Shown: one piece after another, positions 7,115-24,249 of the stretch | How the letters are laid out: each line of letters opens with the position of its first letter | Position numbering within the stretch: the stretch's first letter is position 1 | Origin: Sphingomonadales bacterium | Lineage (GTDB): Bacteria; Pseudomonadota; Alphaproteobacteria; SMXS01 | Assembly: GCA_022844405.1 (NCBI GenBank) | Contig: JALHLV010000020.1 | Coordinates: 1 to 64,000, forward strand | Reading direction: 5' to 3' | DNA length: 64,000 nt | The notes under the pieces: model-generated | The model's database searches: none | Seen by the model: only the letters and a program-made list of their open reading frames with translations | What the model was told of the DNA's origin: nothing | Program-made: the position numbers and the translations under genes

Positions 7115-7159
7115 GAACACGGACTTTCTGGTAAGGCCCGTTTTCCGGGCGGTGCCTGG

Positions 7160-7888
7160 CTAGATCAGCGCGAGCAGCAAGCCATAGGCCGTCGCGCCGG
7201 CAAGGAAGGGCAGGTAGCGTCCGCCATTCCGGTTCGGCAACTCCATCAAGGCGCTGTTGATGGTCACCGCGCCGGATATGAAGGCGATAAAAAGGGCGAT
7301 CGCTTCGTCGGGGAAGCTGTGGACGAGGCCGAGCGCCCATCCGGCCACGGTCGCCCCGGCCAGCACGAAACGGCCCCGACGGTCGTAGAGGGCGCCGTGT
7401 TCCTCACGCAGAAAGTGATCGACCGCCAGGAAGTGCACGGCCGTTGCCGCCACGGTCATCGCCAGGGCAATGCCTCCGGCTTCCTCCTCGCCGAGCAGGT
7501 AGGCCATGAGCGCGACGTAGACCGCGAAGCCTCCCACATGCATCCAGTGGCTTCCCGCAGCCGTGCCGCCCGTCTCCTGCTCGGTCGCGCGGAAGCGATC
7601 CAGCCCGTAATAGCCGACGAACCCCGCCAGCGAGACCAGGTAGACAGCTTCGCCGCCACGCGGCAGCGACGGCCCCATCGCCGCGGCGAACATGGCCTGG
7701 CTCGCATGGATCTCGGGCATCAGCTGAACGAATACGTAGGCGATGGACACCCCGGCGCCAAATGACATGGCGCAACGATGGTCACAGCCCAGCGACCGCA
7801 GCGGCCGCAGACGGCGCCCCGCGACGAAGCACAGGACATAGGCAAACGCGGCGGCTCCGGTGTGGAGAGTGTGAACTTGCTCGATCAC
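7160..7888 (-). CDS. Polytopic membrane protein, possibly ZIP-like
   Basis: The 242-aa protein has about seven hydrophobic segments (for example HTGAAAFAYVLCFVAG, VSIAYVFVQLMPE, GGFAVYVALMAYLL and a C-terminal AGATAYGLLLALI). FVQLMPEIHAS and the late segment with HSFPDEAIALFIAFISGA recall ZIP metal transporters, but the overall match is loose and I would not assign a substrate. The start is GTG (7888), with GGGA about 10 nt upstream. It is the first gene of a two-gene unit with the sulfatase-maturating enzyme, and three CTACA repeats lie about 110-130 nt upstream. Confidence 0.6.
   Translation of the reverse strand: MIEQVHTLHTGAAAFAYVLCFVAGRRLRPLRSLGCDHRCAMSFGAGVSIAYVFVQLMPEIHASQAMFAAAMGPSLPRGGEAVYLVSLAGFVGYYGLDRFRATEQETGGTAAGSHWMHVGGFAVYVALMAYLLGEEEAGGIALAMTVAATAVHFLAVDHFLREEHGALYDRRGRFVLAGATVAGWALGLVHSFPDEAIALFIAFISGAVTINSALMELPNRNGGRYLPFLAGATAYGLLLALI
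7753..7767 (-). promoter_or_regulatory. Intragenic match to the TGTCATTTnGCGCCA motif
   Basis: The minus strand reads TGTCATTTGGCGCCG, differing in one base from the motif found at five intergenic positions of this region. It lies inside the membrane-protein gene, so it may be chance or an internal site. Confidence 0.3.
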
Positions 7889-7995
7889 GGCGGGTTGTCC
7901 CAGCTGTTCGGGAAGCGCGGCGTCGGGACCGGCAAGTCGGCCGCGCGGCGCCTCCCCCTCGACGAGATGCTTAGCATCAGCAAGGACTGTCGCCG

Positions 7996-8020
7996 TGTAG
8001 CGTCGTGTAGATTCCTGTAG
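7996..8020 (-). promoter_or_regulatory. CTACA direct repeats, three copies at 10-bp spacing
   Basis: On the minus strand CTACA begins at 8020, 8010 and 8000, exactly one helical turn apart. The site is upstream of the 7888-5873 unit. The same pattern occurs at 10291, 18439 and 18638. Confidence 0.6.
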
Positions 8021-8086
8021 CGTCGGCGCTGCCGGCCGCTTCGGCGCCGGTCGGCGTCTACCCCTGTTCGTTCCTCGGCGTGCCGG

Positions 8087-10150
8087 CTAGAGCGCCTGGA
8101 CGCCGTATTTCTTCAGGACGGTCTCGGGTACGGGGAGGCCTGCCTTCAGGTACCCCTTGAGCAGGGAGACCCGGTCTTCGGTGCGAAGGTTGCGCTTGTC
8201 GAACTCGTGATCGATCTCGACCATCTGGTGGGTGCCGAGCTTGAGAAATGCGTCACGCATGCGCTTTGCGTCCTCCTCACGCCCTGCCTCGGCGTAGATG
8301 GCCGCGGCGCAGATCATGGTAATGCCGCTGTTGCTTGGATCGACGGTGTCGATCAGTTCCTCGGCGGCCTTCAGGTCGTGGCGGAAAAAGGCGGTGACCG
8401 CAAGCTGGATCCTGTAGAAATTGGCGTTGGCTGGATTGTAGTCGATGGCGCGCCGGACCATCGCGTCGCCCCTTTCAAAGTCTCCGGCCAGCGCCAGTCT
8501 GGTGCCGTACTCGCCGACAAGTTCCATGTCGTTGGGATTGAGCTGCAGAGCACGCTCGGCGACGGCTTTGCCAGCGGCGACATTCTGGTTCAGGAAGCTG
8601 GTAAGCATCAGCGCCTGGAGTGCGCGTACATTCTCGGGATCGAGCGCAACCGCCTTCTGTGCTGCATTCAGAGCAAGCGGCAGCAATTGATCCCTGCCTT
8701 CGGGGTCGCCCTTGTGGAACAGGTCGCGGTCCCGGTAGACGATGGCCAGGAGCGCCCAGGCCGTCGCATAATCCGGGAATTTCTCCAGCGTCTTCTCGAG
8801 ACAGGCCTGCAGCCTCGCCAGGTGCGCGGGATCGATCGCCTGCCGGTAGGTGTAGTATGACATCGTGCAGTTATACGCATCGATGTCCTCCGGCATCAGG
8901 CCGCTGCCGACGGCCGTCTGTCCATAGGCCAGCTTGTATGGCTGGCCGATGGAAAGAGCGACGTTGTCGGCGATGTCATCCTGGGCCGAGATCAGATTCT
9001 GGACGTTCAGGTCCTTGTCGTAGCCGCCCGACCACAGAACGACTCCGGCTTCGTCGGTCAGGCGCGCCAGCACCCTGATCTTGTTGCCGGCGATCTGTGT
9101 GCTACCCGTCACATAAAAATTCCGGGCCCCACGGGGACCCGTCACGGCCGCCGATTCCGTCGCCGGTACAGTATCGAAGATGACGCTCAGGTCTGGAAAC
9201 TTCACCAGCTTCTGCACGATCTCAGCCGCCATGCCCGTCGCATAGTTCTGGTCTTCCGGCGTCCCGCCCAGGTTCTGGAAGGGCCGAACGCGAATTAAGG
9301 GAAGCAGCGACATATGGCCGACCCCTGCCGCTGCGCCTGCCGCAGGGGTTTGTGCAACAGCCGCCGGAGCTTCACTCAACTCCCGCGATGCCTTCCAGGT
9401 GCCGGTGACGATCCAGATGGCCGCCGCTGCCAAGACGATCAGCGCGCCGATCCCGGCGGCCCAGTTCTGCCACCAGGAGAAGCGGGCATCCGGCAAGTGG
9501 CTGGCGTCGCCGAATGGCCGTTCCGACCCATCCGCATGCTCGCTTCTATCGAAGTGAGGCACATAGCCGCCCTTCGGGATCGAGATGACCAGGGCATCGT
9601 TCGCCCCTTCCAGAAGGTAGAACCGCTCCAGCGCGCTTCGAAGCCGTGCCGCTTCGGTACGCACGACGGGGTCATGCTGGGCATCGAAGGACGGATCTCG
9701 GCCGAAGACTTCGATGCCGATGGAATATGCCTTCAGACGGTCGCCCCGGCCGGCAAGGACTTCCTCGACCACATATTGCAGGAATTTCTTGCTGCGCGGC
9801 GGCACCCTGAAGTCATCGCTCTCGACAATACGGGTAACCTGTTCGCGAACCTCACCGTCTGTTATCCCCGCACGGCCATTGGCCGACGGTGCCGAACTCT
9901 GTTCCGGCGCTGTTGCCTCCACAGGTATTGTCCCCCTAGCCACCAAGCTTGCTGCCCGGAGCCCCTTGCCGGCAGGTAGTATAGCGTTACCAAGGGCGCA
10001 GTCTAATCCTATTGATTGTGCGTTCCGGGTCGGCGGCCACACGACGTTGGGTGGGCTGGCAACCCCACTCGTATCCATGATTGGCTCAAAGCGGCTTGAT
10101 CTGATTTTTATGTGACGATCAGGAAAATATATTTGGATGTAACTGGTCAT
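8087..10150 (-). CDS. Membrane-anchored winged-helix / TolB-like / TPR regulator
   Basis: This 687-aa protein has a cytoplasmic N-terminal domain (about residues 98-200; EVFGRDPSFDAQHDPVVRTE, then RSALERFYLLEG) found in many alphaproteobacterial regulators and adenylate-cyclase-like proteins, where it is predicted to be a winged-helix fold. One transmembrane helix follows (about 229-250), then a TolB/FlgO-like domain (about 280-390) and a C-terminal array of TPR repeats (about 430-680). The layout is that of CadC-like one-component sensors. It may bind the CTACA repeats that flank it at 7996 and 10291; this is inference. The first 24 codons are AT-rich, and an ATG at 10078 is an alternative start; neither has a clear ribosome binding site. 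Confidence 0.75.
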   Translation of the reverse strand: MTSYIQIYFPDRHIKIRSSRFEPIMDTSGVASPPNVVWPPTRNAQSIGLDCALGNAILPAGKGLRAASLVARGTIPVEATAPEQSSAPSANGRAGITDGEVREQVTRIVESDDFRVPPRSKKFLQYVVEEVLAGRGDRLKAYSIGIEVFGRDPSFDAQHDPVVRTEAARLRSALERFYLLEGANDALVISIPKGGYVPHFDRSEHADGSERPFGDASHLPDARFSWWQNWAAGIGALIVLAAAAIWIVTGTWKASRELSEAPAAVAQTPAAGAAAGVGHMSLLPLIRVRPFQNLGGTPEDQNYATGMAAEIVQKLVKFPDLSVIFDTVPATESAAVTGPRGARNFYVTGSTQIAGNKIRVLARLTDEAGVVLWSGGYDKDLNVQNLISAQDDIADNVALSIGQPYKLAYGQTAVGSGLMPEDIDAYNCTMSYYTYRQAIDPAHLARLQACLEKTLEKFPDYATAWALLAIVYRDRDLFHKGDPEGRDQLLPLALNAAQKAVALDPENVRALQALMLTSFLNQNVAAGKAVAERALQLNPNDMELVGEYGTRLALAGDFERGDAMVRRAIDYNPANANFYRIQLAVTAFFRHDLKAAEELIDTVDPSNSGITMICAAAIYAEAGREEDAKRMRDAFLKLGTHQMVEIDHEFDKRNLRTEDRVSLLKGYLKAGLPVPETVLKKYGVQAL

Positions 10151-10290
10151 TAGTCTGCAGTAAAGATTTCAGTTACTTTCAATAATTTGTCACAAAAAAA
10201 CTCTGTTACATATATTTTATTTATAATGGGTAATCTTTTTTTATCAATTTCTGATCATACGTGGCGCTAACCGGGTATGACACTCAGAGT

Positions 10291-10305
10291 CTACACGAGG
10301 CTACA
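10291..10305 (+). promoter_or_regulatory. CTACA direct repeats upstream of the AraC operon
   Basis: CTACA occurs at 10291 and 10301 with a degenerate third copy (CTTCC) at 10311. The site is 112-126 nt upstream of the 10417 start and 140 nt upstream of the divergent regulator. The 266-nt intergenic region is otherwise AT-rich, especially 10150-10260, and carries no gene. Confidence 0.6.
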
Positions 10306-10416
10306 TGGGGCTTCCGGACATCCCTGCTAATTGAGTCGGACATCGGCCGACGGCTCTAGGTGCCTCGGCGGCAATCCGCCCGGGTCTGGGCGGCTGACTC
10401 ATGAGAGGTGTGTCAA

Positions 10417-10821
10417 ATGGATGTCTCCGATCTCGGCACGCGGCTGTTCAGCAATCTGGCGGCGCGCCCTGAAGGCGTATTGGCGCTGCGCTTCCTTCTG
10501 CAGCCTGCCGTGTCTTCAGTCCTGGGCATCCTCGACGGCATCAAGGATGCGAGGACCGATCGCACCCCTTACCTGTGGACGATCCTTTCGGTGCCGGGCA
10601 AGCGCCGGGGGCGCTTGAGCGAGGGGGTCTCGGCGACCACAAAGGTGCTCGGCATGGCGCTGGCGACGGACCTCATCTATCAGTACCGCACCCTGGACAC
10701 CTTCTATCTGGACGAGGCCCTCGTCGTGGCCCTCGCCCTCGGCTTCGTCCCCTATCTGCTGATCCGCGGTCCTGCGGCACGCGTCACGCGCTGGTGGATG
10801 CTCCGCAAGGCACGGGGCTGA
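10417..10821 (+). CDS. Small membrane-associated protein of unknown function
   Basis: The 134-aa product is not a family I recognise. It has two moderately hydrophobic stretches, about residues 20-35 and a clearer one in LDEALVVALALGFVPYLLI, and a basic C-terminus. The ATG at 10417 follows AGAGG at a good distance; a GTG three codons upstream is less likely. It is the first gene of an apparent operon with the AraC regulator (6-nt gap) and a polytopic membrane protein, downstream of a CTACA site. Confidence 0.7.
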   Translation: MDVSDLGTRLFSNLAARPEGVLALRFLLQPAVSSVLGILDGIKDARTDRTPYLWTILSVPGKRRGRLSEGVSATTKVLGMALATDLIYQYRTLDTFYLDEALVVALALGFVPYLLIRGPAARVTRWWMLRKARG

Positions 10822-10827
10822 GCGCCG

Positions 10828-12126
10828 ATGAGCACCCAGCCCATCAGCATATTGCAGTCGCGCCGGCAGATACCGTCCAGCCTGGTCGCGATCAAGGAGT
10901 CCAAGGACCTTCGCTCGCTGAAGAAAGGCAAGCTGTGTCTTGGTCTGCTGCCGATCTTCATGATCCATCCGTTCATCGAGTGCTGCGACCGGCACCGCTG
11001 GTCCCTCGACGTGGTGCTGGCCGAGGCGGATTTTCCGGGCCAGCATGTCGAGGACCGCGAGGGCTACATTTCCGGCGTCGACACCGGGCGGTTGCTCGAG
11101 GCCATGGCCAGGCTTGCCCGAAACCGCGATTTCGCGTTTCGCGCGGCCTCGGTGCTTTCGATGTCGGACCTGGGAGATTTTGGCCACGTCCTGCAGGGCG
11201 CGGCCACCGTAGGCGAACTGATCGACCGGTATGTCGAGCACCTGCATCTCTTCGAGACCGTCTCCCGCTCCTGGGTCGAGTACTCGCGGGAAGGCGCCCT
11301 CTGGTGCCTGGAGCTGCGAAATCCCGAAGCCCCAGGTGCGGACATCCTGGAAGAGTTCCTCTTCCTTGTGCAGCTGTCCATCCTGCGCTCTGCCCTGAGC
11401 GGCGGCTGGATTCCGCGCAAGCTCCTCTTCAAGCGGCAGGGTCCGCTTCCCGCCGAGATTGGCCGGCACCTCATGGCGGCGGCGATGCCCGGCGCGGGTC
11501 GGCACGGCATCATGCTCGACCGGGAGGTGCTGGCGCAGCCTCTCGCGAGTTCGAGGCGCTTCAGCCAGACCCAGCTGGATAGCTGGTCGCGCAGCCTCGC
11601 CGCCAATGCGCCGGCCCAGAATGTGCTCGAGGCGCTGGCCCAGGCGCTGCGGCACGCACTGTCCTCCCAGCGTTATTCCCTGCATCAGATGGCGCAGCGC
11701 ATGAACGTCAGCGCCAGATCGCTGCAGCGTTTCCTCGCAGACCAGAACCTCACCTATTCGGAGGTCGTCGAGGCCGTGCGGCGCGACCTGGCGATGGAGA
11801 TGCTCGGGCAGGAGGATCTGTCCATAACCGAGATCGCGCTCGAACTCGGTTACACGGACTCGGCGAATTTCAGCCGTGCCTTCAAACGGCTCACCGGCGA
11901 GACTCCGAGGTCGTATCGAAAGGCCGTCGAAGGACTTGCGGTATTTCCGCGGCCTTTGGCCGGCTGGAGCCGGCAGCTCGCGCAGGTGGAATGCCCGACC
12001 TCGAGGCGGGCGTCGCCAGCCAAGTTCACGGCGGTGCCGATCGGGGCTGCGGCAAAATGGTCGGATACGGGGCAGGCATATCCGGGCGACCGGTTCAGCA
12101 CCATACGAACCGCGGCGCTGCGGTGA
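10828..12126 (+). CDS. AraC-family transcriptional regulator (arabinose-binding-like N-domain)
   Basis: The 432-aa protein has a large N-terminal sensor domain (about 30-230) of the type found in OruR/VirS-like regulators and a C-terminal AraC double helix-turn-helix (about 285-385). The latter contains the helix SLHQMAQRMNVSARSLQRFL and the hallmark ITEIALELGYTDSANFSRAF. About 45 residues follow the DNA-binding domain. It is the best candidate to read the TGTCATTTnGCGCCA motif that recurs through this region, because asymmetric sites of about 15 bp are normal for this family and no other AraC gene is visible. The inducer is unknown. Confidence 0.9.
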   Translation: MSTQPISILQSRRQIPSSLVAIKESKDLRSLKKGKLCLGLLPIFMIHPFIECCDRHRWSLDVVLAEADFPGQHVEDREGYISGVDTGRLLEAMARLARNRDFAFRAASVLSMSDLGDFGHVLQGAATVGELIDRYVEHLHLFETVSRSWVEYSREGALWCLELRNPEAPGADILEEFLFLVQLSILRSALSGGWIPRKLLFKRQGPLPAEIGRHLMAAAMPGAGRHGIMLDREVLAQPLASSRRFSQTQLDSWSRSLAANAPAQNVLEALAQALRHALSSQRYSLHQMAQRMNVSARSLQRFLADQNLTYSEVVEAVRRDLAMEMLGQEDLSITEIALELGYTDSANFSRAFKRLTGETPRSYRKAVEGLAVFPRPLAGWSRQLAQVECPTSRRASPAKFTAVPIGAAAKWSDTGQAYPGDRFSTIRTAALR

Positions 12127-12172
12127 GCCGGCCGCACCGCCCGGCGGGCGCGAGGAAAGAACAGGACCGGAC

Positions 12173-13348
12173 ATGGACCCGATGAACGAATTCTCGTTAA
12201 CCCGGGGAGGCCTCCTGTTCAGGCTCTGGCGCCGCCTGGGTCTCATCGATGACGACATGGGCCGCCTCAAGCGCCGGGTTGTCGTCGCATCGTTGATCTG
12301 CTGGCTCCCCCTGCTGGTGCTGGCGGCAATGCAGGGGCGCCTCTTCGGAGGAACCGCGATGCCGTTCCTCATGGATGTGGAAGCGCATGTAAGATACCTC
12401 ATCGCGGTGCCCATCCTGCTCGCGATCGAGGTCGTCGCGCACCGGCGGCTCATCACTTTCGAGGCGCTGTTCGTCGAGAGGGACCTCATTCCGCCGCCGG
12501 CGTTGCGGCGCTTCCAGGACGCCATTGCATCGGCGTCCCGTCTTCGGGACTCGCCGTGGCCGGAAGTTGTCCTGATCGTCCTGGTTTATCTGGTCGGCAT
12601 CCTGTTCGTCTGGAGGCACTACGCGACGCTGGATCTCGACACCTGGTATGGACGTCCGAGCCCGGATGGTCATCGGCTGACGGTCGCCGGTTTCTGGTAT
12701 GCCGTCGTCAGCGTGCCGATCTTCCAGTTCCTGGTGGTTCGCAGCTATTTCAGGATGTTCATCTGGGCGCGCCTGCTGTGGCAGATATCCCGGATCGAGC
12801 TCCGTCTTGTGCCGTCCCATCCTGATCGGGTCGGCGGTCTCGGCTTTCTCTCGAACACCATCAACGCCTTCATACCGTTCATGGTGGCGCATGGTGTCAT
12901 GCTCGCGGGTGGCTTCGCCGCGCGGATCCTGCATCTGGGCGCCAGCCTGATGGATTTTCGGCTCGAGGTCGCCGCGGCCCTGGTCATCCTGCTCGCGCTT
13001 GTCCTGTGCCCGTTCCTGGTCTTCGCTCCCCAGCTGGAGATCGCCAAGCGCAAGGGCTTGCGGGAGTACGGGACCCTGGCGCAGACCTATGTCCGTGACT
13101 TCGAGGCCAAGTGGCTGCGGGGTGCGCCTTTGGGCCGCGATGCCACGTTCCAGAATGGCGGTGACATCCAGTCCCTGGCCGATCTCGGCAACAGCGTCCA
13201 GGTTGTCGACACCATGCGCCTTGCGCCGTTCAAGAGCGACGCCGTGTTCCGTCTGGGCGTGGCGATGCTCGCACCCCTCTCACCCCTGCTGCTCACTATG
13301 ATGTCGGTCGAGGAACTCATGAAGCGGCTGGTTGGCATCCTGTTCTGA
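12173..13348 (+). CDS. Polytopic membrane protein, paralogue of the 18821 gene
   Basis: The 391-aa protein has about six or seven transmembrane segments and a soluble stretch before the last one. It shares with the protein at 18821-19999 the motif HPDRVGGLGF (HPDQAGGIGF there) at the same place, the surrounding membrane topology and a C-terminal segment ending in LF, so they are paralogues. I do not recognise a characterised family. The ATG at 12173 follows AGGA by 7 nt; another ATG lies three codons on. It is the third gene of the 10417 operon. Confidence 0.8.
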   Translation: MDPMNEFSLTRGGLLFRLWRRLGLIDDDMGRLKRRVVVASLICWLPLLVLAAMQGRLFGGTAMPFLMDVEAHVRYLIAVPILLAIEVVAHRRLITFEALFVERDLIPPPALRRFQDAIASASRLRDSPWPEVVLIVLVYLVGILFVWRHYATLDLDTWYGRPSPDGHRLTVAGFWYAVVSVPIFQFLVVRSYFRMFIWARLLWQISRIELRLVPSHPDRVGGLGFLSNTINAFIPFMVAHGVMLAGGFAARILHLGASLMDFRLEVAAALVILLALVLCPFLVFAPQLEIAKRKGLREYGTLAQTYVRDFEAKWLRGAPLGRDATFQNGGDIQSLADLGNSVQVVDTMRLAPFKSDAVFRLGVAMLAPLSPLLLTMMSVEELMKRLVGILF

Positions 13349-13500
13349 CCGCAGGAACGCGTCAGCTTCCGCTGACCACGTAGGCCGCATGCAGCGCGTC
13401 AGCGCCCGAGACTTCGGCCCGGTCAGAGAATAGTGGCGCACACTGCCCGCAATCGTTCCGAAGGGAACGGGCCTCGCCGCCTCCGCTGTGTTCTCCTGGC

Positions 13501-13538
13501 AAAAAAATGCCGCCGCCGGCTCCCAAGCCGGCGGCGGC
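13501..13538 (-). terminator. Rho-independent terminator of the sulfatase gene
   Basis: On the minus strand a 13-bp perfect stem (GCCGCCGCCGGCT / AGCCGGCGGCGGC) with a 4-nt loop is followed by A and seven T. It lies 15 nt after the sulfatase stop. Confidence 0.9.
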
Positions 13539-13553
13539 TTTGGTTGCTGCCCT

Positions 13554-15917: not shown

Positions 15918-16062
15918 GCTGGTCCTCCTAGACACTTGCGTTGCGGCCGTTTTGTCGGCGGCGGATGACACCGCGGCGATTTTTCGGGTCGTCCGGGCAC
16001 AGCGCGTGAGCTGACCCGACCGACCAGGGAGGCCATCTTCCGCCGCCGGGCTCAGCGAGGCG

Positions 16063-16077
16063 TGTCATTTGGCGCCA
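16063..16077 (+). promoter_or_regulatory. Putative AraC operator TGTCATTTGGCGCCA
   Basis: A perfect copy of the motif also seen at 23829 and 24087. It lies 146 bp upstream of the sulfatase start and 229 bp upstream of the porin start. Confidence 0.6.
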
Positions 16078-16187
16078 GTTTCGTCCTGGCGAATGGTCCC
16101 GCATCGAATTCCTGAGCAGACGGGGAGTGGCGTCCCGTGCGCGGGATTGGGCAATCCCGTGATGGAGCGAGGCCTCAACGCAGATGG

Positions 16188-16202
16188 TGGCATGAAATGA
16201 TA
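16188..16202 (-). promoter_or_regulatory. Degenerate inverted copy of the AraC-type motif
   Basis: The minus strand reads TATCATTTCATGCCA, two mismatches from the motif outside its free position. It faces the perfect copy at 16063 and is closer to the porin start (104 bp). Confidence 0.4.
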
Positions 16203-16305
16203 GGAACGATTGGTCCCTTGCGCCCAAACATCCTTGGACCAGGCCGATAGCTGGTTTGGCCGATGCAAGGGAGAAAGACGAGTGCAGGTGGTCGAAGGAT
16301 CGGAA

Positions 16306-17100
16306 ATGACACCGGTGAATGCGCGGGAGCCGCGCAAGGAAAACACACGGGTGCGCAAATTGCTGGGGGCTGTCGTCGGGCTAGTGGCGATCGCCTTCGC
16401 GAGCGATGCGGCTGCCGAGGAAAAGTGGCAGTTCATCATGGAGCCATACGTCTACATGGGCTCGCTCGACGGCAATGCCGCGATCGGCCGCGCTCAGGGC
16501 GATATCGACGCCGATTTCGGCGATCTTCTGAAGAACCTGAAGATCGCCGCCATGCTGAACGCAGAAGCGACGAACGATCGGTGGGGAGTGATCAGCGACT
16601 TCCAATATCTGAAGCTGGGCCTGAAGCAGGACCTCGTCGGCGAAAGGTTCGCGGAGCTGACTTCCAAGCTGACCGTGTTCGAAGCGGAGGCATTCTACCG
16701 GTGGCATGTCGGCGAGCGCGCTACACTCGACGGGTTCGCCGGTATTCGCTACTGGAATGTCAGGTTGTATGCGGATCTCTCGGGACCCTTGCTCGACCCG
16801 GCCCTGCGCCGCGCCGCCGACTGGGTTGATCCGCTCATCGGTATCCGCCTGACCGTCCCGCTGACGGAGCGCCTTACGCTCAGGGTGCGCGGCGACATCG
16901 GCGGGTTTGGAGTTGGCTCGAAGTTCAGTTGGCAGGTCTTTGCCGGGCTTGGTTACGACGTCAGCAGGCGTGTCGCGGTCACTCTCGGTTACCGCTATCT
17001 CGATGCCAACTATTCGCGCGGCCTGGTCAATACACCCGACCATTTCGTCTACGACGCCGCGATGCATGGTCCGCAGCTAGGTTTCAGGTTCACGTTCTAG
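16306..17100 (+). CDS. Outer-membrane beta-barrel protein
   Basis: The 264-aa product has a signal peptide (about residues 1-37, KLLGAVVGLVAIAFASDAAAE). It then shows alternating aromatic/hydrophobic strands with the segments EPYVYMGSLDGN, AGIRYWNV and GYRYLDANY, and a terminal phenylalanine (GFRFTF), the usual signal for barrel assembly. The length fits an 8- to 12-stranded barrel. Function is unknown. The ATG at 16306 follows AAGGA by about 7 nt. It is divergent from the sulfatase and shares its control region. Confidence 0.8.
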   Translation: MTPVNAREPRKENTRVRKLLGAVVGLVAIAFASDAAAEEKWQFIMEPYVYMGSLDGNAAIGRAQGDIDADFGDLLKNLKIAAMLNAEATNDRWGVISDFQYLKLGLKQDLVGERFAELTSKLTVFEAEAFYRWHVGERATLDGFAGIRYWNVRLYADLSGPLLDPALRRAADWVDPLIGIRLTVPLTERLTLRVRGDIGGFGVGSKFSWQVFAGLGYDVSRRVAVTLGYRYLDANYSRGLVNTPDHFVYDAAMHGPQLGFRFTF

Positions 17101-17320
17101 TCCCGAATACCCGAGGAAATGAGGAGTTTGAAACCACGGCCCACAGGCCTGCAGGTCGCCGGTGGGTAAGGCGCCGATCAATCTCAAAGCCGGTACCACC
17201 GCGAGTTAGACGCTTGGAACCGTTTCTCTGGCGACATCGGTGTCGTCATCCTTGGCAAGCCGCTTCGCGGCCTTGTCCGACACGCGAGAGGTTCTGCCTC
17301 CGGCAGGAGACTACAAACAA

Positions 17321-17358
17321 AAAAGGCCCCGGACCCGCTCGTGCGGGTCCGGGGCCTT
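17321..17358 (-). terminator. Rho-independent terminator, 16-bp stem
   Basis: A perfect 16-bp stem (arms 17323-17338 and 17343-17358) with loop TCGT/ACGA runs into TTTTTTG on the minus strand. It lies 10 nt after the stop of the 17758-17369 gene. The 17101-17368 interval holds no other feature I can support. Confidence 0.9.
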
Positions 17359-17368
17359 CGCTTGATCG

Positions 17369-17758
17369 CTACTTCGAGGTTTTGGTGACTTCCTCGAACT
17401 CGCCCAGTGGGCACGGCCCGTAGCTGGCGCCGGCGCCCGTCCTGACCGGCTTGATGACATCGACATTGCACAGATCGCTGGAGCCGCGCTGCTCGTAGCT
17501 GAAGCCGTCCTGCATCTTCAGGCCGGAGCAGCGATTGGGCAGGTGGTTGATGTAGTAGGTGCCGCCGCTCAGCTTGAACAGCACCGACTGGTTGTCGAGG
17601 ACATCCGTGCTCTGGATCTGGCGGGCATTGATGCAGTTCACCTTCTTGCCGGTCGGCGTATAGGGCGATGTCGCTGCATCGGCTCCCGCGGCCGCGGCCG
17701 GCGTGGCCAATGAGGCCAGGGCTCCAAGGGTGATCAGAGGGCGAAGGTGGCGGTTCAT
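17369..17758 (-). CDS. Small secreted protein, DUF6491-like
   Basis: The 129-aa protein has a signal peptide (about 1-23, LGALASLATPAAAAG) and four cysteines in the mature part (CINARQIQ, RCSGL, LCNVD, CPLGEF). This spacing resembles the DUF6491 family of secreted proteins of unknown role; the assignment rests on memory of that pattern. It is a single-gene unit ending at a strong terminator. A degenerate AraC-type motif lies 78 bp upstream. Confidence 0.75.
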   Translation of the reverse strand: MNRHLRPLITLGALASLATPAAAAGADAATSPYTPTGKKVNCINARQIQSTDVLDNQSVLFKLSGGTYYINHLPNRCSGLKMQDGFSYEQRGSSDLCNVDVIKPVRTGAGASYGPCPLGEFEEVTKTSK

Positions 17759-17835
17759 GTGTCACTTCTCCTTGTTGTTCAGAGCTCGTTTGGTGGAAAT
17801 GACCGAATTCTTCGCGTTCAATTCGCATTTATACT

Positions 17836-17850
17836 TGTCATTATGCGACA
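17836..17850 (+). promoter_or_regulatory. Degenerate AraC-type motif TGTCATTATGCGACA
   Basis: Two mismatches from TGTCATTTTGCGCCA. It lies in AT-rich sequence 78 bp upstream of the 17758 start on the opposite strand. Confidence 0.4.
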
Positions 17851-17932
17851 TATATTTTCGTGTATCCGGTAGACTTCTGGTGGCCTTCGCGCGTTGAGCC
17901 CCCTGCATGGGCGGCCTTTGATCGGCCCCGGC

Positions 17933-18343
17933 TCAGAGCGCCCGTATGATGATCCCGAGGAACAGGAAAAGCCCCATGACGGCCATGGCCACCGCGATAG
18001 GGAACGCGGGGCGTCGAAGCGCGACGAGGGTGCCGGGGATCAGCTGCCGTACCGTATGGCGGTATTCGATGACCCCGATGCCCAGGGCGACGATCCCCAG
18101 ACCGATCAGGAACAGGGCGACGCCGCGCGGATTGGCGACCATGTCCGGATCCTTTGCGATCATTCCCTGCAGGATCTTGTAGATCGTGAAGCCGAAGCTG
18201 ATCATCGAGAGACCCGTCCGGATCCATGCCATCAACGAACGGTCCGCCGCCATGAGCGTCCGGCGGACGGCGAGGTCGGTCCGCTCCATCGCAAGTTCAT
18301 TGGCGGACATTGCCTTGTCCTCGCCCTTGAGTTCCGCAGTCAT
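17933..18343 (-). CDS. DUF202 family inner-membrane protein
   Basis: The 136-aa protein has the DUF202 pattern ERTDLAVRRTLMAADRSLMAWIRTGLSMISFG followed by three transmembrane helices in total. DUF202 proteins are widespread inner-membrane proteins without a defined role. Two ATG codons are possible, 18343 and 18310; GGAG precedes the first by 12 nt and GAGG the second by 8 nt. A CTACA direct repeat lies about 100 nt upstream. Confidence 0.88.
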   Translation of the reverse strand: MTAELKGEDKAMSANELAMERTDLAVRRTLMAADRSLMAWIRTGLSMISFGFTIYKILQGMIAKDPDMVANPRGVALFLIGLGIVALGIGVIEYRHTVRQLIPGTLVALRRPAFPIAVAMAVMGLFLFLGIIIRAL

Positions 18344-18438
18344 GTTTGATGGTGTCTCCAGCCCGTCGGCAACGCGGGATCGCGTCGCGGCTCGCTTCCG
18401 ATTCACCAGAATCGTATCACCGGACGCCCCGGGCTCTT

Positions 18439-18453
18439 TGTAGCCTACTGTAG
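18439..18453 (-). promoter_or_regulatory. CTACA direct repeat upstream of the DUF202 gene
   Basis: On the minus strand the sequence is CTACAGTAGGCTACA, two CTACA copies exactly 10 bp apart, 96-110 bp upstream of the 18343 start. Confidence 0.55.
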
Positions 18454-18637
18454 TCTCGCGTCCGCGAGGCGGCGCCCGAGCCGGCCGGCGACCGTCACCG
18501 CGCCGCCTGTCCGGCTTTCCCCCTGCAAGCCGTGGGAGGTCCACCGGTCCGCCATGCGCCGACTGTGGTTCCACCCGGTTGATCCGTCATCGCACGCGCC
18601 TCGCAGCGAGGCGTAGCCGCATCGTCGGACTGCGAGG

Positions 18638-18652
18638 ATACACGAGGCTACG
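18638..18652 (+). promoter_or_regulatory. CTACA-type repeat upstream of the 18821 operon
   Basis: ATACACGAGGCTACG matches CTACACGAGGCTACA of site 10291 in 13 of 15 positions. It lies about 170 bp upstream of the 18821 start. Confidence 0.5.
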
Positions 18653-18820
18653 CCCATCGGGTTCCGGCGAAGGGCCTGAACGCGGTACTCAAGTAAGCGG
18701 GAGCGCCGTCCAGACCACGGCGCGCGGAGAGAGGATGATGCAGCCAATGGCCGGACAAGCGGCCCGGATGGGGCGGAGCCGAATGTTCGCGGTTACGCGT
18801 TATCCCCGGTTAGGCGTCCC

Positions 18821-19999
18821 ATGACCGGCGGCCCGCCATGCCAGGGCTCCGGTCCGTCCGAAGCCGCGCCGCCATACGGAATCCTGCGATGGTTTGGCCT
18901 CGCCGACGCGTCCGCAATCAGTCACATCCGCGTCGCTGGGATGGTTGTGATGGTTATCTGGTATCCGCCCTTGCTGATCACCCTGCTGCAACAGGGCATG
19001 ATGGCCCTGCCCAACTGCTCGGAATTCCTCAACGACGTTGCTGCCCACCTCCGGCTGTTGATCGCCGCGCCGTTGCTGGTGGTCGCTCACGGGGTATGCT
19101 CGCCGCGCCTCAATGTGCTGATGGATGAGTTCCTCGCCGGCGGTCTGGTAAGCCAGCGAGACCGCGGACGGCATCAGGCTGCGATCCATTCGACCCGTAT
19201 CCTCATGCGATCGCGTCTGGCCGGCCTGGGGACGATCGTACTCAGCTATTGTCTCGTCGCCTGGGCCATCGGAGTGCTCCCCGGTCACGCCGCGCCCGCC
19301 TGGTACAGGTCGGACGCGGGCTCGCTTGCCACCTATCCATGGGCAGCCTGGTGGTACGGCCTCGTCAGTCTGCCGCTCGTCGTCATGCTGCTGCTGGGCT
19401 GGGCCTGGCAGCTGCTGCTTTGGACCCGCTTCCTGACGCTCATGAGCCGGCTCGAGCTGCAGGTAACGCCCTTCCACCCGGACCAGGCCGGTGGCATTGG
19501 CTTCGTCGGCGTGTCCGCGAGGGCTTTCGCCATTGTAGCCCTAGCTGTTTCAGTCATCCTGGTGGGGCCGTTCCTCGACCGCCTGGTGGGCGCCAGCACA
19601 CTCCTCCTCGGTACGGTTGCCGAGGTTTTGGTCACAATTCTGCTTGTCGTCTGCCTTTTCACCGCACCGCTGGCTGCCTTCATGCCGTTGCTCGTCAGGA
19701 CATGGTGGCAGGGGCGCACAGCGCTCCAGAAGCTCGCCAGCCGGTTGAGCAGGCAGTTGCAGGCCGACCGGCCGAAGAGCGGGCCGGTGTCCGGGGACCT
19801 CGCCAGGGGAACCGATCTGCTGACGATCACCCAGCTTCAGCTCGCGTCCGGCAAGATCTGGTCGATGCGCCTCCTGCCCATCGATGGCAAGAGCATAGTC
19901 ATTCTCATCCTGGCGGCTGCTTCACCGTTCCTCGTCGCCGCATTGTTTGCCGTCCACCGCAGTGGCGGCATCGGCGCCCCCGGCGAGCTTTTGTTCTGA
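18821..19999 (+). CDS. Polytopic membrane protein, paralogue of the 12173 gene
   Basis: The 392-aa protein has about six transmembrane segments and a conserved HPDQAGGIGF motif at the point where its paralogue has HPDRVGGLGF. A cytoplasmic-looking stretch (about 300-340) precedes the last helix. The two paralogues are divergent enough that the duplication is probably not recent. No function is known to me. It is followed 106 nt later by the 20106 lipoprotein-like gene, and a CTACA-type site lies upstream. Confidence 0.8.
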   Translation: MTGGPPCQGSGPSEAAPPYGILRWFGLADASAISHIRVAGMVVMVIWYPPLLITLLQQGMMALPNCSEFLNDVAAHLRLLIAAPLLVVAHGVCSPRLNVLMDEFLAGGLVSQRDRGRHQAAIHSTRILMRSRLAGLGTIVLSYCLVAWAIGVLPGHAAPAWYRSDAGSLATYPWAAWWYGLVSLPLVVMLLLGWAWQLLLWTRFLTLMSRLELQVTPFHPDQAGGIGFVGVSARAFAIVALAVSVILVGPFLDRLVGASTLLLGTVAEVLVTILLVVCLFTAPLAAFMPLLVRTWWQGRTALQKLASRLSRQLQADRPKSGPVSGDLARGTDLLTITQLQLASGKIWSMRLLPIDGKSIVILILAAASPFLVAALFAVHRSGGIGAPGELLF

Positions 20000-20105
20000 C
20001 GGCCTCGCAGGGCGCTGCTGCCGGCCAGCGGATGGCGCAAGATGACATGAGCGCGCGGCAGCCGGACCCCACCCTCGACCTATGCAACCCTAGAGGGAGA
20101 TCGAG

Positions 20106-20753
20106 ATGAAGAAGAATTGGTACGCACTCGCCGCCATGCTCACCCTCATCGCCTGGGCCGTCGACGCCGGTGCGGAGACCGGTGCCGCGCCGGCCGAGCC
20201 GCAGCGCGAGCTGGTCAGGCTCGAGGATACGAAGCTTGGTCTGGTCTACTCCGTCGCCGGCCTTGATCTGAAGGCATACAACTCGGTGGTGATCGAGCCG
20301 ATCGAGGTTCGCTACGATACCGCGAACCGCGACATGTACCGCCTCGATGCCGGGGATTTGAAGCGGCTCAACGAATATGCCCGCGATGCCATGACGCGCC
20401 AGCTGTCGTCGGATGGTCGCTACAAGATCGTCGATAAGCCTGGCCCGGGAACGCTCGTGATCCGAGCCCAGCTCGCGGACGTCTGGCTCGCATTTTCCAA
20501 GCGGGCCAAAACGGGACGAACCTACACCCTTGGCGAGTACGCCATCCAGATGAGGCTCGAGGCGGCCCTTGTCGACGGTGCGACCGGTGAGGTGCTGGCG
20601 CTGGCTGGCGACAGGCAGGGGGATCGGATCAACAACAGGACGCGCCGCATCACCAGCCTCGACGCCTGGCAGCAGGTCAGGAAGGCGTTCGATTTCTGGG
20701 CCGGCAGCCTACGGCAGGCTCTCGATCAGTCGCGGTCGACGCCGAAGCCCTGA
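20106..20753 (+). CDS. Secreted DUF3313-like protein
   Basis: The 215-aa protein has a signal peptide (about 1-24, WYALAAMLTLIAWAVDAGA). Its mature domain (VVIEPIEVRYDTANRD; then IRAQLADVWLAF; then VDGATGEVLALAGDR) resembles DUF3313, a family of periplasmic or lipid-anchored proteins of unknown function. It has no lipobox cysteine. GAGGGAGA precedes the ATG. It sits between a membrane protein and the DUF2092-type gene on the same strand. Confidence 0.7.
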   Translation: MKKNWYALAAMLTLIAWAVDAGAETGAAPAEPQRELVRLEDTKLGLVYSVAGLDLKAYNSVVIEPIEVRYDTANRDMYRLDAGDLKRLNEYARDAMTRQLSSDGRYKIVDKPGPGTLVIRAQLADVWLAFSKRAKTGRTYTLGEYAIQMRLEAALVDGATGEVLALAGDRQGDRINNRTRRITSLDAWQQVRKAFDFWAGSLRQALDQSRSTPKP

Positions 20754-20787
20754 ATTCCGGGGCCGGTCCGCCGGCCGGCGCCTCCGG

Positions 20788-20802
20788 TGGCGTCAAATGA
20801 CA
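20788..20802 (-). promoter_or_regulatory. Putative AraC operator TGTCATTTGACGCCA
   Basis: One mismatch from TGTCATTTGGCGCCA, in inverted orientation, 134 bp upstream of the 20936 start and 35 bp after the preceding stop. Confidence 0.5.
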
Positions 20803-20935
20803 GGCCTCCGCCTGGCGATTCGGGAAAATGAGCGGGCCAGGACGTCCTGGGCGTCCTGGCGCTGCCCGCAGGAGAGAGGCCCGCGGCGGCCGCGGCTTCG
20901 CGAAGGCAATAACCCAACAACAGGATGCATGAAGC

Positions 20936-21739
20936 ATGCTCTACAAAAAATCCATCGGCCCATTGCTGTTATCGGCAGCTCTCCTGGCCGCACCTCAGCC
21001 AGCTGCGGCGCAGGAGGCGGCCGCGAGCACACAGGGAGCCGCCGCGGAGGCCGTGCCCTCGCGGTACATTTCTCCCCAGGCGCAGGCGGTCGTCACCCGC
21101 ATGACCGCGTATCTGAAGGGGCTTCAGGCCTTCGAGATCGAGGCCGATTCCACCCGGGACGAGGTCGTGGCGCTTGGCTACAAGCTGCAGCACAACGAGC
21201 GCAGCAAGCTCCTTGTGCAGCGGCCGGACAAGCTCCGGGCAAAGCTCGAGGGAGATCTTCGCGACCGTACCATCGTCTATGACGGCGCCAATGCGGTCAT
21301 CTATTCGCCTGTCGACGACGCCTATGTGAAGGTCGCGGTGCCGAACAGTCTCGAACAGCTCATCGGAGATCTGCTCGAGGCTGGCGTCGAGATGCCCATG
21401 ATCGACGTGCTGTACCAGGCCGTCGCCGGAACGCTTACCGAAGCCGTCCGGGGCGGCGTGCTCGTCGGCGAGTCGGTGATCGACGGCGTCAAGTGCGACC
21501 ACCTCGCGTTTCGCCAGCTTAATGTCGACTGGCAACTGTGGGTGGAGCAGGGCGCTCGCCCGGTCCCCCGCAAGATCGTCATCACTACGCGTTACCAGGT
21601 TGGGGATCCGCAGTACCAGGCCGTTCTGCGCTGGAACCTCTCCCCGCGCATCGACGCCTCCACCTTCGTGTTTACCCCGCCGCAGGGAGCGTCCGAGATT
21701 CCGCTCGTGACCGCGACCCCCGAAGCCGCCAAACCCTGA
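20936..21739 (+). CDS. Periplasmic DUF2092-type protein, copy A
   Basis: The 267-aa protein has a signal peptide (about 1-26, PLLLSAALLAAPQPAAAQ). Its periplasmic domain has the DUF2092 features of a helical start (MTAYLKGLQAFEIEAD) and strands such as VQRPDKLRAKL, ending in DASTFVFTPPQGA. The fold is thought to be LolA-like, which would suit binding of a lipid or lipoprotein; that is family-level inference. A paralogue (copy B) lies at 22820-23674 in the opposite orientation, sharing GVKCDHLAFR with DVDWQLW-like segments and PRKIVITTRYQ. It is 12 nt from the next gene. Confidence 0.8.
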   Translation: MLYKKSIGPLLLSAALLAAPQPAAAQEAAASTQGAAAEAVPSRYISPQAQAVVTRMTAYLKGLQAFEIEADSTRDEVVALGYKLQHNERSKLLVQRPDKLRAKLEGDLRDRTIVYDGANAVIYSPVDDAYVKVAVPNSLEQLIGDLLEAGVEMPMIDVLYQAVAGTLTEAVRGGVLVGESVIDGVKCDHLAFRQLNVDWQLWVEQGARPVPRKIVITTRYQVGDPQYQAVLRWNLSPRIDASTFVFTPPQGASEIPLVTATPEAAKP

Positions 21740-21751
21740 GAGGACCATCAC

Positions 21752-22273
21752 ATGTCGCACAATCCAGCAATGAAACCGCGATCCATGCTCGGCGGCTGGC
21801 GTTTCGCCGCTTGCCTTCTGGGCGGCCTCGCCATGGTTGCCGCAAGTACGGCCAACGCGGGCCCGCAACGGTCCGGCGGAGATCGCGGCGGCCGAGGATC
21901 CCTTGCCAACTCGTCGGTCGCCGGCTCCAACAACAACTTCCAGGGCCGGGGCGGCGACCGCGTCAACAACGGCAACATCAACAGTGGAAACATCAATGTC
22001 GGCAATGACATCAATGTCGACATCGACCGCGACTATCATGGCGGCTACTACCATGGACATGGCCATTATCCGTATCGTCCCGTCGCTGCCGGTATCGTCA
22101 TAGGCGCGGTCGCCGTGACCACCGCGGCCGTCGTCGGCTCCTACTACCGGTCGCTCCCGACAGGATGCACGGTCGTGGTCAAGAATGGTGTGCAGTACCA
22201 CTACTGCGGCACGGTCTATTATCAGAAGACGTGGTACGGCAACGACGTGGTGTACGTGGTCGCCACGCCGTAA
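21752..22273 (+). CDS. Small secreted protein with Asn/Gly-rich repeat and GC-YY motif, copy A
   Basis: The 173-aa protein has a signal peptide (about 16-36), then a low-complexity N/G/I stretch (RVNNGNINSGNINVGNDINV), a His/Tyr-rich segment (DYHGGYYHGHGHYP) and a hydrophobic helix (about 110-130). Its C-terminal motif is GCTVVVKNGVQYHYCGTVYY. The last motif recurs in the protein at 22476-22823 and is like that of DUF6515-type secreted proteins. Role unknown. It follows the DUF2092-type gene by 12 nt and ends before a terminator. Confidence 0.7.
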   Translation: MSHNPAMKPRSMLGGWRFAACLLGGLAMVAASTANAGPQRSGGDRGGRGSLANSSVAGSNNNFQGRGGDRVNNGNINSGNINVGNDINVDIDRDYHGGYYHGHGHYPYRPVAAGIVIGAVAVTTAAVVGSYYRSLPTGCTVVVKNGVQYHYCGTVYYQKTWYGNDVVYVVATP

Positions 22274-22323
22274 CGGCGAGACCGTTGGTCCGTAAGGGGC
22301 CGACGCGCGAACGTCCAACTACG

Positions 22324-22355
22324 ACGGCGGTGGCTCCCTGGGCCGCCGCCGTTTT
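22324..22355 (+). terminator. Terminator after the 20936-22273 unit
   Basis: An 11-bp stem (ACGGCGGTGGC / GCCGCCGCCGT, one G-U pair) with a 7-nt loop is followed by TTTTC, 50 nt after the stop at 22273. Confidence 0.75.
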
Positions 22356-22475
22356 CAGGTCGACCACCGGCCCGCTCGGGCCGGCTTCGTTTGTGTCAGG
22401 CGATGCGGGCAGAGGGGGTCTGGACCCGCCGCATCGCCTGGACCACCCGTGGTCGGGCGGGGCCTCATGCCGGCG

Positions 22476-22823
22476 CTAGTCGATCGTGACGACGACGTAC
22501 TGGTTGCCGCTCTGCTGGTAATAGGTCGCGCCGCACTGATAGATCGTCGACCCGTTGATCACCGTCGTCGTGCAGCCTTGCGGCAGGACGGCGACATAGG
22601 TTGTCGTGGCCTGCACGGTGCGCCGCGCGGTTCGGCGCGCGACCCCGGCCACGCTGAGCGGCGTCGCGGGGGCGCCGACCACCGCCCCGGCTTCCGAGAC
22701 GAGGATGCCGCCGGAGGCGACGAGCCCTGCATCGCTGGCCAGATTGGCGCCGGCGTCGAGGGCGAGGGCGGCGACTGCCGTCAGGGCGATCGCGCGCATC
22801 GAGGTGGATAGGCGTTTCATCAT
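22476..22823 (-). CDS. Small secreted protein with GC-YY motif, copy B
   Basis: The 115-aa protein has a signal peptide (about 1-27) and ends in GCTTTVINGSTIYQCGATYY followed by a YVVV strand. That end is closely like the C-terminus of the 21752 product, although the N-terminal low-complexity part differs. The start is one of two adjacent ATG codons; the one at 22823 overlaps the stop of the DUF2092-type gene by 4 nt (ATGA), so the pair is translationally coupled. A GC-rich hairpin without T-run (22398-22441) follows the gene. Confidence 0.75.
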   Translation of the reverse strand: MMKRLSTSMRAIALTAVAALALDAGANLASDAGLVASGGILVSEAGAVVGAPATPLSVAGVARRTARRTVQATTTYVAVLPQGCTTTVINGSTIYQCGATYYQQSGNQYVVVTID

Positions 22824-23674
22824 CGACCTCCGATCCCGATTGACCTGGGAAGGTCGCCCGCCCCCTCCAGCTCGTCGATATTGACGGTGCGGGCACCGGG
22901 CGGTGGCTTGAAGGCGAAGGTATCGGCCGTGATCTCCGGCTTGTCGTTCCAGCCGGTGATGCGAAGCGCGTATTGCGGCGCGCCCGTGGTCCACTTGCTC
23001 GTGATGATGTACTTGCGCGGGATCGGCTTCTCGCCGGCCTGGATCCAGATCTGCCAGTCGACATCGGGTGTCCGGAACGCGAGGTGATCGCACTCCACGC
23101 CGTCCACCATGTCCAACCCGAGGTAATAGGCCTGTTCGACGGGCTCGATGAGTTCCCTGTAGACGTCGGACATCAACAGGTCCGCGCCGGAGAAGTCGAT
23201 CCCCGAATGAGCCCGTACGTCGTCGATCAGCATGTCCAGGTTCGGAGAGGCTCCGGCCTGGGCATATGCGTTGACCTTCTTGCCATGCAGCGACAGGGTC
23301 TTGCCGTCTGAAATGATGTCGACATCCGCGAAGCTGGTGGTCCGCGAGGCACGGATCATGTTGGGTCGCTTGACGGTCGCGGAGCCGTGGCTGCCGAACT
23401 GCAGCTTCAGCCCCGACATGGCCGTCTGGCCGCCATGGCTGATCACCTCCACGTCCGACGTGTATTGCATCGTGAATGCCGGTGTCCTCGCGAGATAGTC
23501 GGACATGTTCTTGAGCACCTCGCGCGCGTGGTCGCCGGTATCCTGCGCCATCGCCGGGGTAGTGGCGCCCAGCGCCAGCAAAGGCGCTATCAGCGCCGCG
23601 CGGACCGTGAACGTTCCTCGAGACGCGCTGCGCCTGTTCGGAACGCGGGATCTTTCTGTAGGCATTCGGTTCAC
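22820..23674 (-). CDS. Periplasmic DUF2092-type protein, copy B
   Basis: The 284-aa protein has a long signal peptide (cleavage near TTPAMAQ, about residue 44). It shares with copy A the middle segment GVECDHLAFRTPDVDWQIW, the following PRKYIITSKW and the ending ADTFAFKPPPGA. The mature domain is the same DUF2092-type fold. The start ATG at 23674 is the first of several; a later one (MPTERS) could also serve. It is the first gene of a two-gene unit facing copy A, with an AraC-type site 155 bp upstream. Confidence 0.8.
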   Translation of the reverse strand: MNRMPTERSRVPNRRSASRGTFTVRAALIAPLLALGATTPAMAQDTGDHAREVLKNMSDYLARTPAFTMQYTSDVEVISHGGQTAMSGLKLQFGSHGSATVKRPNMIRASRTTSFADVDIISDGKTLSLHGKKVNAYAQAGASPNLDMLIDDVRAHSGIDFSGADLLMSDVYRELIEPVEQAYYLGLDMVDGVECDHLAFRTPDVDWQIWIQAGEKPIPRKYIITSKWTTGAPQYALRITGWNDKPEITADTFAFKPPPGARTVNIDELEGAGDLPRSIGIGGR

Positions 23675-23828
23675 TCCCTTTGGATGGCTGTCGTGTCGAT
23701 GGGGCAGGGCGGAGACGTGTGAGGGTCGGCCCGGCCATGGGATTGCCGCAGTCGAGCCGAAGGCGGCAATCGGAAAGCCGGCGGATCGTGGACGCTTCCA
23801 TAGTCCCCCGCGGGCCGCCCAGCCCTCA

Positions 23829-23843
23829 TGTCATTTCGCGCCA
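23829..23843 (+). promoter_or_regulatory. Putative AraC operator TGTCATTTCGCGCCA
   Basis: A perfect copy of the shared motif, 155 bp upstream of the copy B start at 23674. Confidence 0.6.
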
Positions 23844-24086
23844 ACGGCTGTTGCCGGCCGGAGAGCCGCCCGATGCCGTTCAACCCTGGTATGTCAGGCC
23901 GGCGCGTGCCAGTGGAGCCGGGCGAGAGTGCGCCGGCCTGTCATACGGCCTGCCTTGTCATCGGGCCGGCCTGTCATGTCGGCAGCGTTGAGCGGCCTTG
24001 GGTGCCCTTCGGATGCACCCGTGTCTTGGTTGGTCACTATTGACGCACGTTCATGCCAATAATTACTCAATATTTACAAAGTTTCT

Positions 24087-24101
24087 TGTCATTTTGCGCC
24101 A
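24087..24101 (+). promoter_or_regulatory. Putative AraC operator TGTCATTTTGCGCCA
   Basis: A perfect copy of the shared motif within AT-rich DNA, 149 bp upstream of the 24250 porin start. Confidence 0.6.
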
Positions 24102-24249
24102 ATAATATTCATGGAAAAGATAATGGGTATTTGTTTAATGCAGATCGAATATTATGGATATGCGGTAATATGGCATCTGGTGATGACGGGCGGCCCGCAT
24201 GCGTAAGCGCTTCGGTACTGGCGTCGTCGTCTGATGAGAGGTCATAACA

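Follow-up and report, generated by a model that had tools for sequence, protein, structure and literature searches.

A repeated 15-base motif in a sulfatase and envelope-protein gene cluster of a Sphingomonadales bacterium: a probable operator of an AraC/XylS-type activator

A stretch of 64,000 nucleotides from a Sphingomonadales bacterium (contig JALHLV010000020.1; the whole stretch is called the window, and its genome G000) carries a gene cluster in which one 15-base motif is repeated in front of genes for a sulfatase, an outer-membrane protein and several DUF-family proteins, and which also encodes a regulator of the AraC/XylS family, P0001 (PF12625 plus HTH_18; 10828..12126, plus strand), the proposed binder of the motif. 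The motif in the window is real, and because near-identical sites lie beside AraC genes and similar genes in other bacteria, it is most likely a docking site of an AraC-family regulator. An earlier note on this DNA had taken the motif as the mark of an AraC regulon and named seven copies, all of which were found in place by a motif scan of the window. It had seen no further copy in the 64 kb, and there it missed one, at 20033-20047, with one mismatch and in front of a DUF3313 gene; it also overlooked the fixed orientation of the copies relative to the genes. Its statement that the window holds a single AraC stands, as one AraC-type helix-turn-helix (HTH) was found there with an HTH model built from the AraCs of site loci and genus loci.

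Start codons are our choice, and the distances and orientations given here depend on them; the nearer edge of the intergenic copies lies about 59-164 bp from the likely start codon, and six of the seven are oriented toward the nearest one. The copy TGGCGCCAAATGACA (16063..16077, minus) stands 146 bp upstream of the sulfatase gene (PF00884; 13554..15917, minus; likely ATG 15917), TGGCGCGAAATGACA (23829..23843, minus) stands 164 bp upstream of one of two DUF2092 genes, DUF2092b (22820..23665, minus; start 23665), and the one-mismatch copy TGGCGTCAAATGACA (20788..20802, plus) stands 134 bp upstream of the other, DUF2092a (20936..21739, plus), which has an orthologue in the same-genus genome G006. 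The copy missed before, TGGCGCAAGATGACA (20033..20047, plus; minus-sense motif letters TGTCATCTTGCGCCA), has its edge 59 bp upstream of the DUF3313 gene (20106..20753, plus; ATG 20106). Two operator-like copies, TGTCGCATAATGACA (17836..17850, minus; two mismatches) and the weak TGGCATGAAATGATA (16188..16202, plus; three mismatches), lie respectively 78 bp upstream of a DUF6491-like gene (17369..17758, minus; under the Pfam cut-off) and 104 bp upstream of the likely start of an outer-membrane beta-barrel protein (OMP; PF13505; 16306..17100, plus), whose ATG at 16306 was picked for a signal-peptide-like N-terminus. All of these genes are proposed targets. The exception in orientation is the copy at 24087..24101 (minus; gene-strand letters TGGCGCAAAATGACA), which has the highest matrix score of all copies, 31.5; it reads leftward to DUF2092b over ~420 bp, and the divergent open reading frame (ORF) at 24250 is closer, at ~150 bp. 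Upstream of DUF2092b, the interval bounded by the two strong sites also contains three TGTCAT half-sites (23939, 23956 and 23972; region 23939-23977). The intragenic copy at 7753..7767 (plus; one mismatch) has a matrix score of 9.4 (rank 10), which is background, and is probably not a working site, and a three-mismatch intragenic copy at 20387 is noise.

The check for random occurrence across the genome, which the earlier note had named as a refutation, favoured the note. In the whole 3.78-Mb genome, the three exact copies (16063, 23829 and 24087) and the three with one mismatch all sit in one 16.3-kb section of contig C20, at 7753-24101 of the window. With up to two mismatches there are 30 matches genome-wide against 7 for the reversed pattern; 24 have two mismatches, and 23 of these lie outside the window cluster. 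At three mismatches the window total of 9 copies is unremarkable (shuffle mean 5.37, with 8 of 100 shuffles reaching 9), so the copy at 16188 is not supported by mismatch count; its matrix score is also within noise, and its orientation and position fit. A matrix trained on 33 outside sites, which were found with the same motif and include those of loci L133 and L054, gave the seven intergenic copies the seven best scores in the window (31.5, 25.8, 19.7, 16.6, 15.1, 15.1 and 10.6, the last for 16188); since 15 Markov controls each had a best score between 8.4 and 18.1, only the top three copies singly exceed every control. As the outside sites were located using the motif, their sequence conservation is partly a product of selection, and what is independent of that selection is their position, strand and gene neighbours. 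Across 385 sampled genomes of the class, exact TGYCATTTNGCGCCA gave 19 matches outside G000 against 10 for reversed controls, and many single matches there are therefore chance.

The proposed binder belongs to the AraC/XylS family by its domains: the C-terminal part carries two HTHs (HTH_18 72.9 bits, cut-off 33.6; HTH_AraC 44.1, cut-off 26.6), and the N-terminal part is a PF12625-type ligand/dimer domain (Arabinose_bd 60.6 bits, cut-off 27.6). P0001 is neither QhpR (equivalog NF049968, 153.8 bits, under the 250-bit cut-off) nor GliR (NF050186, 88 bits, under the 570-bit cut-off). No orthologue of it was found among nine other genomes of genus (7 genomes), family and order (the same 10), these totals counting G000, nor by a peptide-pattern scan across the contigs of 84,980 species. 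Among the 385 class genomes, with at most four scored candidates each, only G191 has a further homologue at E<=1e-30; it carries two in tandem, one of which has a site 33 bp behind its HTH, one mismatch from TGYCATTTNGCGMCA. In an unrooted AraC tree of 28 rows, a split with support 93/96 (not starred) places most site-bearing AraCs of DUF1254/DUF2092 type on the side of P0001 (Leptolyngbya, G191, Rhizobium, the DUF1254-type AraCs) together with a Bauldia AraC that has no site, and places the G004/G006 genus AraC and the Chromatiaceae AraCs on the opposite side. Upstream of the AraC gene and of the gene preceding it, at 10262-10282, there are TGGCGC and TGACA half-sites split by six extra bases, possibly by chance.

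The operator was also sought in 149 genomes of one family of the same class as the window genome, the family of G366: the pattern TGYCATTTNGCGMCA matched 39 times there and its reverse 11 times; 30 loci and 19 wider regions were examined, with 11 of 15 non-canonical matches fetched. In 16 of 24 cases the canonical TGCCATTTnGCGCCA site follows an AraC-type HTH at a distance of 0-68 bp, always at its 3' end and on its strand. By tblastn, 17 of the 24 have a gene for FGE, the oxygen-dependent sulfatase maturase, or for DUF1254 within ~4 kb downstream on the same strand: nine precede an FGE gene with a sulfatase gene after it, and eight precede a DUF1254 gene. One of the remaining seven stands before an OMP gene and one in a DUF2092 locus; examination of the DNA found no FGE, sulfatase, DUF1254, OMP or DUF2092 gene close downstream of the other five. 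Pfam checks gave FGE, sulfatase and OMP (the OMP under the cut-off) in L214, DUF1254/DUF1214 in L106, L212 and L222, and DUF2092 in L226. In several loci a short, HTH-only AraC (113-192 aa) directly precedes the operator, alongside full-length AraC genes of the same locus (L212 6077-6655, L213 4979-5335, L217 4508-4987, L222 5074-5415 and L224 5034-5522; two of these proteins were Pfam-tested). Several DUF1254-type promoters carry a second, degenerate operator copy ~30 bp behind the first (L137 9769-9815, L213 5364, L217 5004, L222 5031, L224 5011).

DUF2092 loci of other lineages were scanned through relatives of DUF2092a, giving 67 loci, and motif counts were made on 66 of them, without L091, which bears the same site as contig C22 of G006. 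In the 66 loci TGYCATTTNGCGCCA occurs 6, 9 and 31 times at 0, 1 and 2 mismatches, against 0, 0 and 10 for the reversed motif; 150 permuted motifs had means of 0, 0.47 and 11.0 and maxima of 0, 5 and 34, and none reached the observed counts at 0 or 1 mismatch and 2 of 150 did so at 2. Sites with at most one mismatch were found in Rhizobium mongolense (L106), Methyloceanibacter (L110), Xanthobacteraceae (L137), Afipia (L154), an acidobacteriote (L133) and Desulfosarcina (L126). The 67 loci divide into 4 with site and AraC, 8 with AraC only, 3 with site only and 52 with neither (Fisher p 0.016). An upstream scan of 66 of the 67 loci, at most 450 bp each, used a matrix of 37 sites with the window and L137 included; of its top three regions two, those of L133 and L091, had no part in the training, and in L133 the site ends 35 bp upstream of the likely DUF2092 start. 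A cyanobacterial (Leptolyngbya) plasmid brings together genes for an AraC, DUF2092, DUF6515 and a sulfatase-like protein, and its site, with one mismatch, lies 93 bp upstream of the AraC gene and is directed away from it, toward a gene row that includes DUF2092. Sites adjoining AraC genes thus recur in Rhizobium, Methyloceanibacter, Afipia, the cyanobacterial plasmid and G191; the order AraC then site is found in L106, L137 (twice), L154, L179 and G191, and in L110 and L178 the AraC gene is divergent, with its 5' end next to the site.

The sites themselves were displayed as 44 from 28 loci, chosen for motif match, of which 40 were aligned and 34 remained after removal of near-duplicates. Their gene-strand consensus is TGGCGCsAAATGRCA, with T1, G2, C4, A10, T11 and G12 invariant in the 34 and C14 present in 97%, and in these motif-chosen sites it forms a direct repeat of TGnC half-sites with a 10-bp period. 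Behind FGE-type sites TTGAG or TTGTG begins after one base in 9 of 9 (by eye). Taken with the parallel to XylS discussed below, the repeat and these -35-like letters lead us to treat the site as that of one AraC monomer in class II position. A search for the -10 element across the 34 sites, confounded by second operator copies in some promoters, found A-rich columns at +24 to +27 and TA at +26 in 9 of 34. In the window promoters a position of the site next to the -35 is not evident, and a promoter scan of 16000-24300 gave one promoter-like match against a shuffle mean of 1.6. Two other identities for the motif were dropped: the Pho box of PhoB has CTGTCAT-like repeats with an 11-bp period, and here the half-sites repeat at 10 bp; sigma-54 promoters have GG-N10-GC spacing, and TGGCGCnAAATGRCA has CA where GC is required. 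What the sequences show is an operator family, with its clustering, its orientation and, elsewhere, a recurrent place behind AraC genes and before FGE-sulfatase or DUF1254 genes.

Within the genus, an exact copy occurs in two of seven genomes, G000 and G006. The perfect copy of G006 (C22:26818) lies ~184 bp upstream of the likely start of a DUF2092 orthologue (C22:25861-26628, other strand, 66% identity), in the same orientation as at DUF2092a, and a small partner gene also stands behind this DUF2092. When 19 window genes were compared with C22, matches came only from the two DUF2092 genes and the small partner. The profile of ten site-locus AraCs matched two proteins in G006, one of an AraC type common to G001-G005 and a weaker match in the HTH part only. 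This AraC type of G001-G006 (L033/L233 at G006:C61; L032, L034-L037) has no match in G000, which carries P0001 in its place, and the G004/G006 type falls across the tree split. The comparison of relatives proposed in the earlier note thus came out in part: outside the genus, sites adjoin PF12625/HTH_18-type AraCs in several lineages, G191 included, and within it the G006 site is without such an AraC.

In our view the motif probably serves as an operator for an AraC/XylS-type activator, with P0001 as its binder at the sulfatase and envelope cluster. The two HTHs of one monomer would touch neighbouring major grooves, with the half-sites one helical turn apart. In the window genome P0001 (10828-12126) would bind the operator and switch on about five or six promoters, those of the sulfatase, OMP, DUF6491-like, DUF3313 and two DUF2092 units, and the trigger would probably be a sulfated or lipid-like ligand at its N-terminal domain. 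Here we infer binding by P0001 itself, activation over repression, the ligand and the working status of the weak copies. The genome-wide clustering and the sites that adjoin AraCs outside the genus support the AraC-regulon reading.

Several observations weigh against this explanation. No AraC lies near eight of the 24 canonical sites or in the loci (up to 3 kb) of the 11 fetched non-canonical matches. Among the DUF2092 loci, 8 of 67 have an AraC yet no site, and the Lysobacterales and Pseudoxanthomonas relatives of DUF2092a (L092-L095; 48-65% identical) are without the site. The top-scoring window copy, 24087, is oriented away from the gene nearest to it, and most window sites are without a clear -35/-10 pair downstream. 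P0001 is only 22-27% identical to the nine other site-locus AraCs, and the FGE-type AraCs and the site-bearing AraC of L110 fall across the split from it, although P0001 and L110 are long branches and their placement is thus uncertain. G006 has a perfect site but, by the profile of ten, no P0001-type AraC; its best match, at 29% identity, belongs to an AraC type also carried by G001-G005, and none of these five has an exact motif copy. Because G006 retains the site without P0001, and as sites of this family beside AraCs of such low identity suggest that several proteins may share one code, the sites could be AraC-family operators read by another AraC encoded elsewhere, P0001 being a neighbour with its own task. 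We regard this as unlikely, given that the profile search of G000 (E<=1e-10) yields P0001 alone, itself a profile row, and that all six strict sites of the genome lie within 16.3 kb around it.

The cluster holds a second candidate reader, which is an improbable one: a TPR protein (8087-10150, minus) with a winged helix predicted at residues ~87-209, then a membrane helix and TPRs (by eye), an arrangement that resembles membrane-bound regulators of the ToxR/CadC type; Pfam names only its TPR part. OmpR/PhoB-type proteins bind direct repeats, and the best structural matches to the winged-helix model are OmpR/PhoB-type domains, with modest Z values up to 7.2 (Foldseek with this domain model gave nothing at E<=0.001). 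A homologue adjoins DUF2092 in G016 and in 8 of the 67 DUF2092 loci, yet none of these eight has the site, G006 has the site without a TPR-regulator match at E<=1e-10, and elsewhere sites lie directly behind AraC genes. Least probable of all is that the copies are a dispersed repeat, an RNA or DNA element that involves no regulatory protein, or a product of chance. Leader elements also occur 59-164 bp before starts, and several copies singly are not above controls; however, flanks are not visibly shared among the window copies in the aligned display, and the clustering and the placement elsewhere go beyond chance. The AraC/XylS-type operator, bound by P0001, is the reading we retain.

Around the proposed targets, the likeliest theme of the cluster is sulfate-ester cleavage, either in the periplasm or in the envelope. 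The cluster sulfatase has an anaerobic sulfatase maturase 6 kb away (5873..7120, minus; TIGR03942, score 462.6 bits, cut-off 349.45), and no matrix-listed window site is oriented at the maturase start; relatives of this maturase adjoin sulfatase genes in L092 and L112. DUF2092a and DUF2092b are only ~35% identical and each is followed by a small partner gene (20936-23665); they are perhaps separate acquisitions. The partner co-directed with DUF2092a (21752..22273, plus) has its C-terminus retained behind DUF2092 in G006, and the one behind DUF2092b is DUF6515-like (22479..22823, minus; just under the Pfam cut-off). A 277-aa ORF with a signal-peptide-like start (24250..25083, plus), without a Pfam or NCBIfam match, is a possible divergent target of 24087; it is overlapped in a different frame by the first part of a 1038-aa patatin/Omp85 ORF (24234-27350), the true start of which is probably later.

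A wider reading is possible, though we hold it only tentatively: one operator code, TGGCGCsAAATGRCA, may be shared across phyla by a diverged AraC clan that adjoins its sites and controls sulfatase maturation/sulfatase and DUF1254/DUF2092 envelope modules, with full-length and HTH-only, MarA-sized AraCs sharing the operator in one family and the window genome as an expanded, multi-promoter version. The operator gives a testable cis-element and regulator for the unknown-function families DUF2092, DUF1254, DUF6515 and DUF3313, connects these families with sulfatases and sulfatase maturases, and lets such regulons be located by a simple scan. The inducer of one such AraC, once found, could hint at what the envelope proteins handle.

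Among known systems, QhpR (NF049968) is the top-scoring NCBIfam model for P0001 and for all six further site-bearing AraCs scanned, but the seven score 118-175 bits, under the 250-bit cut-off; a literature search for the name gave nothing relevant among the matches listed. The best solved-structure match to the profile of ten site-locus AraCs is 8rcx (E 2.8e-36), the VirS of Mycobacterium tuberculosis. The operator was not found in open-licence full texts searched by motif letters or for AraC with sulfatase, FGE and DUF terms; one such search listed a single paper, on a biosensor that is unrelated. For XylS, the Pm promoter of Pseudomonas putida has direct repeats TGCAN6GGNTA, the promoter-proximal copy of which overlaps the -35 by two bases (PMC4225500). 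The half-site geometry is that of our TGGC-N6-TGRCA, and FGE-type sites likewise abut a -35-like hexamer (class II); the letters, target genes and probable ligand differ, and each window promoter has a single clear copy. In Pseudomonas aeruginosa, GliR (PA3027) is an AraC-type activator with a 15-bp motif A, YYGGCGHTDTYSGMC, overlapping the -35 region; TGGCGCTA within its site CTGGCGCTATTCGCC fits the first half of the operator, whereas the second half differs and the GliR targets are glycerolipid genes (PMC8151288). SlfR of the Psychrobacter plasmid pP62BP1 is an AraC regulator with the same domain pair (Arabinose_bd and HTH_AraC) and also lies beside a sulfatase gene, but its sulfatase is a metallo-beta-lactamase-type alkylsulfatase (PMC3346939).

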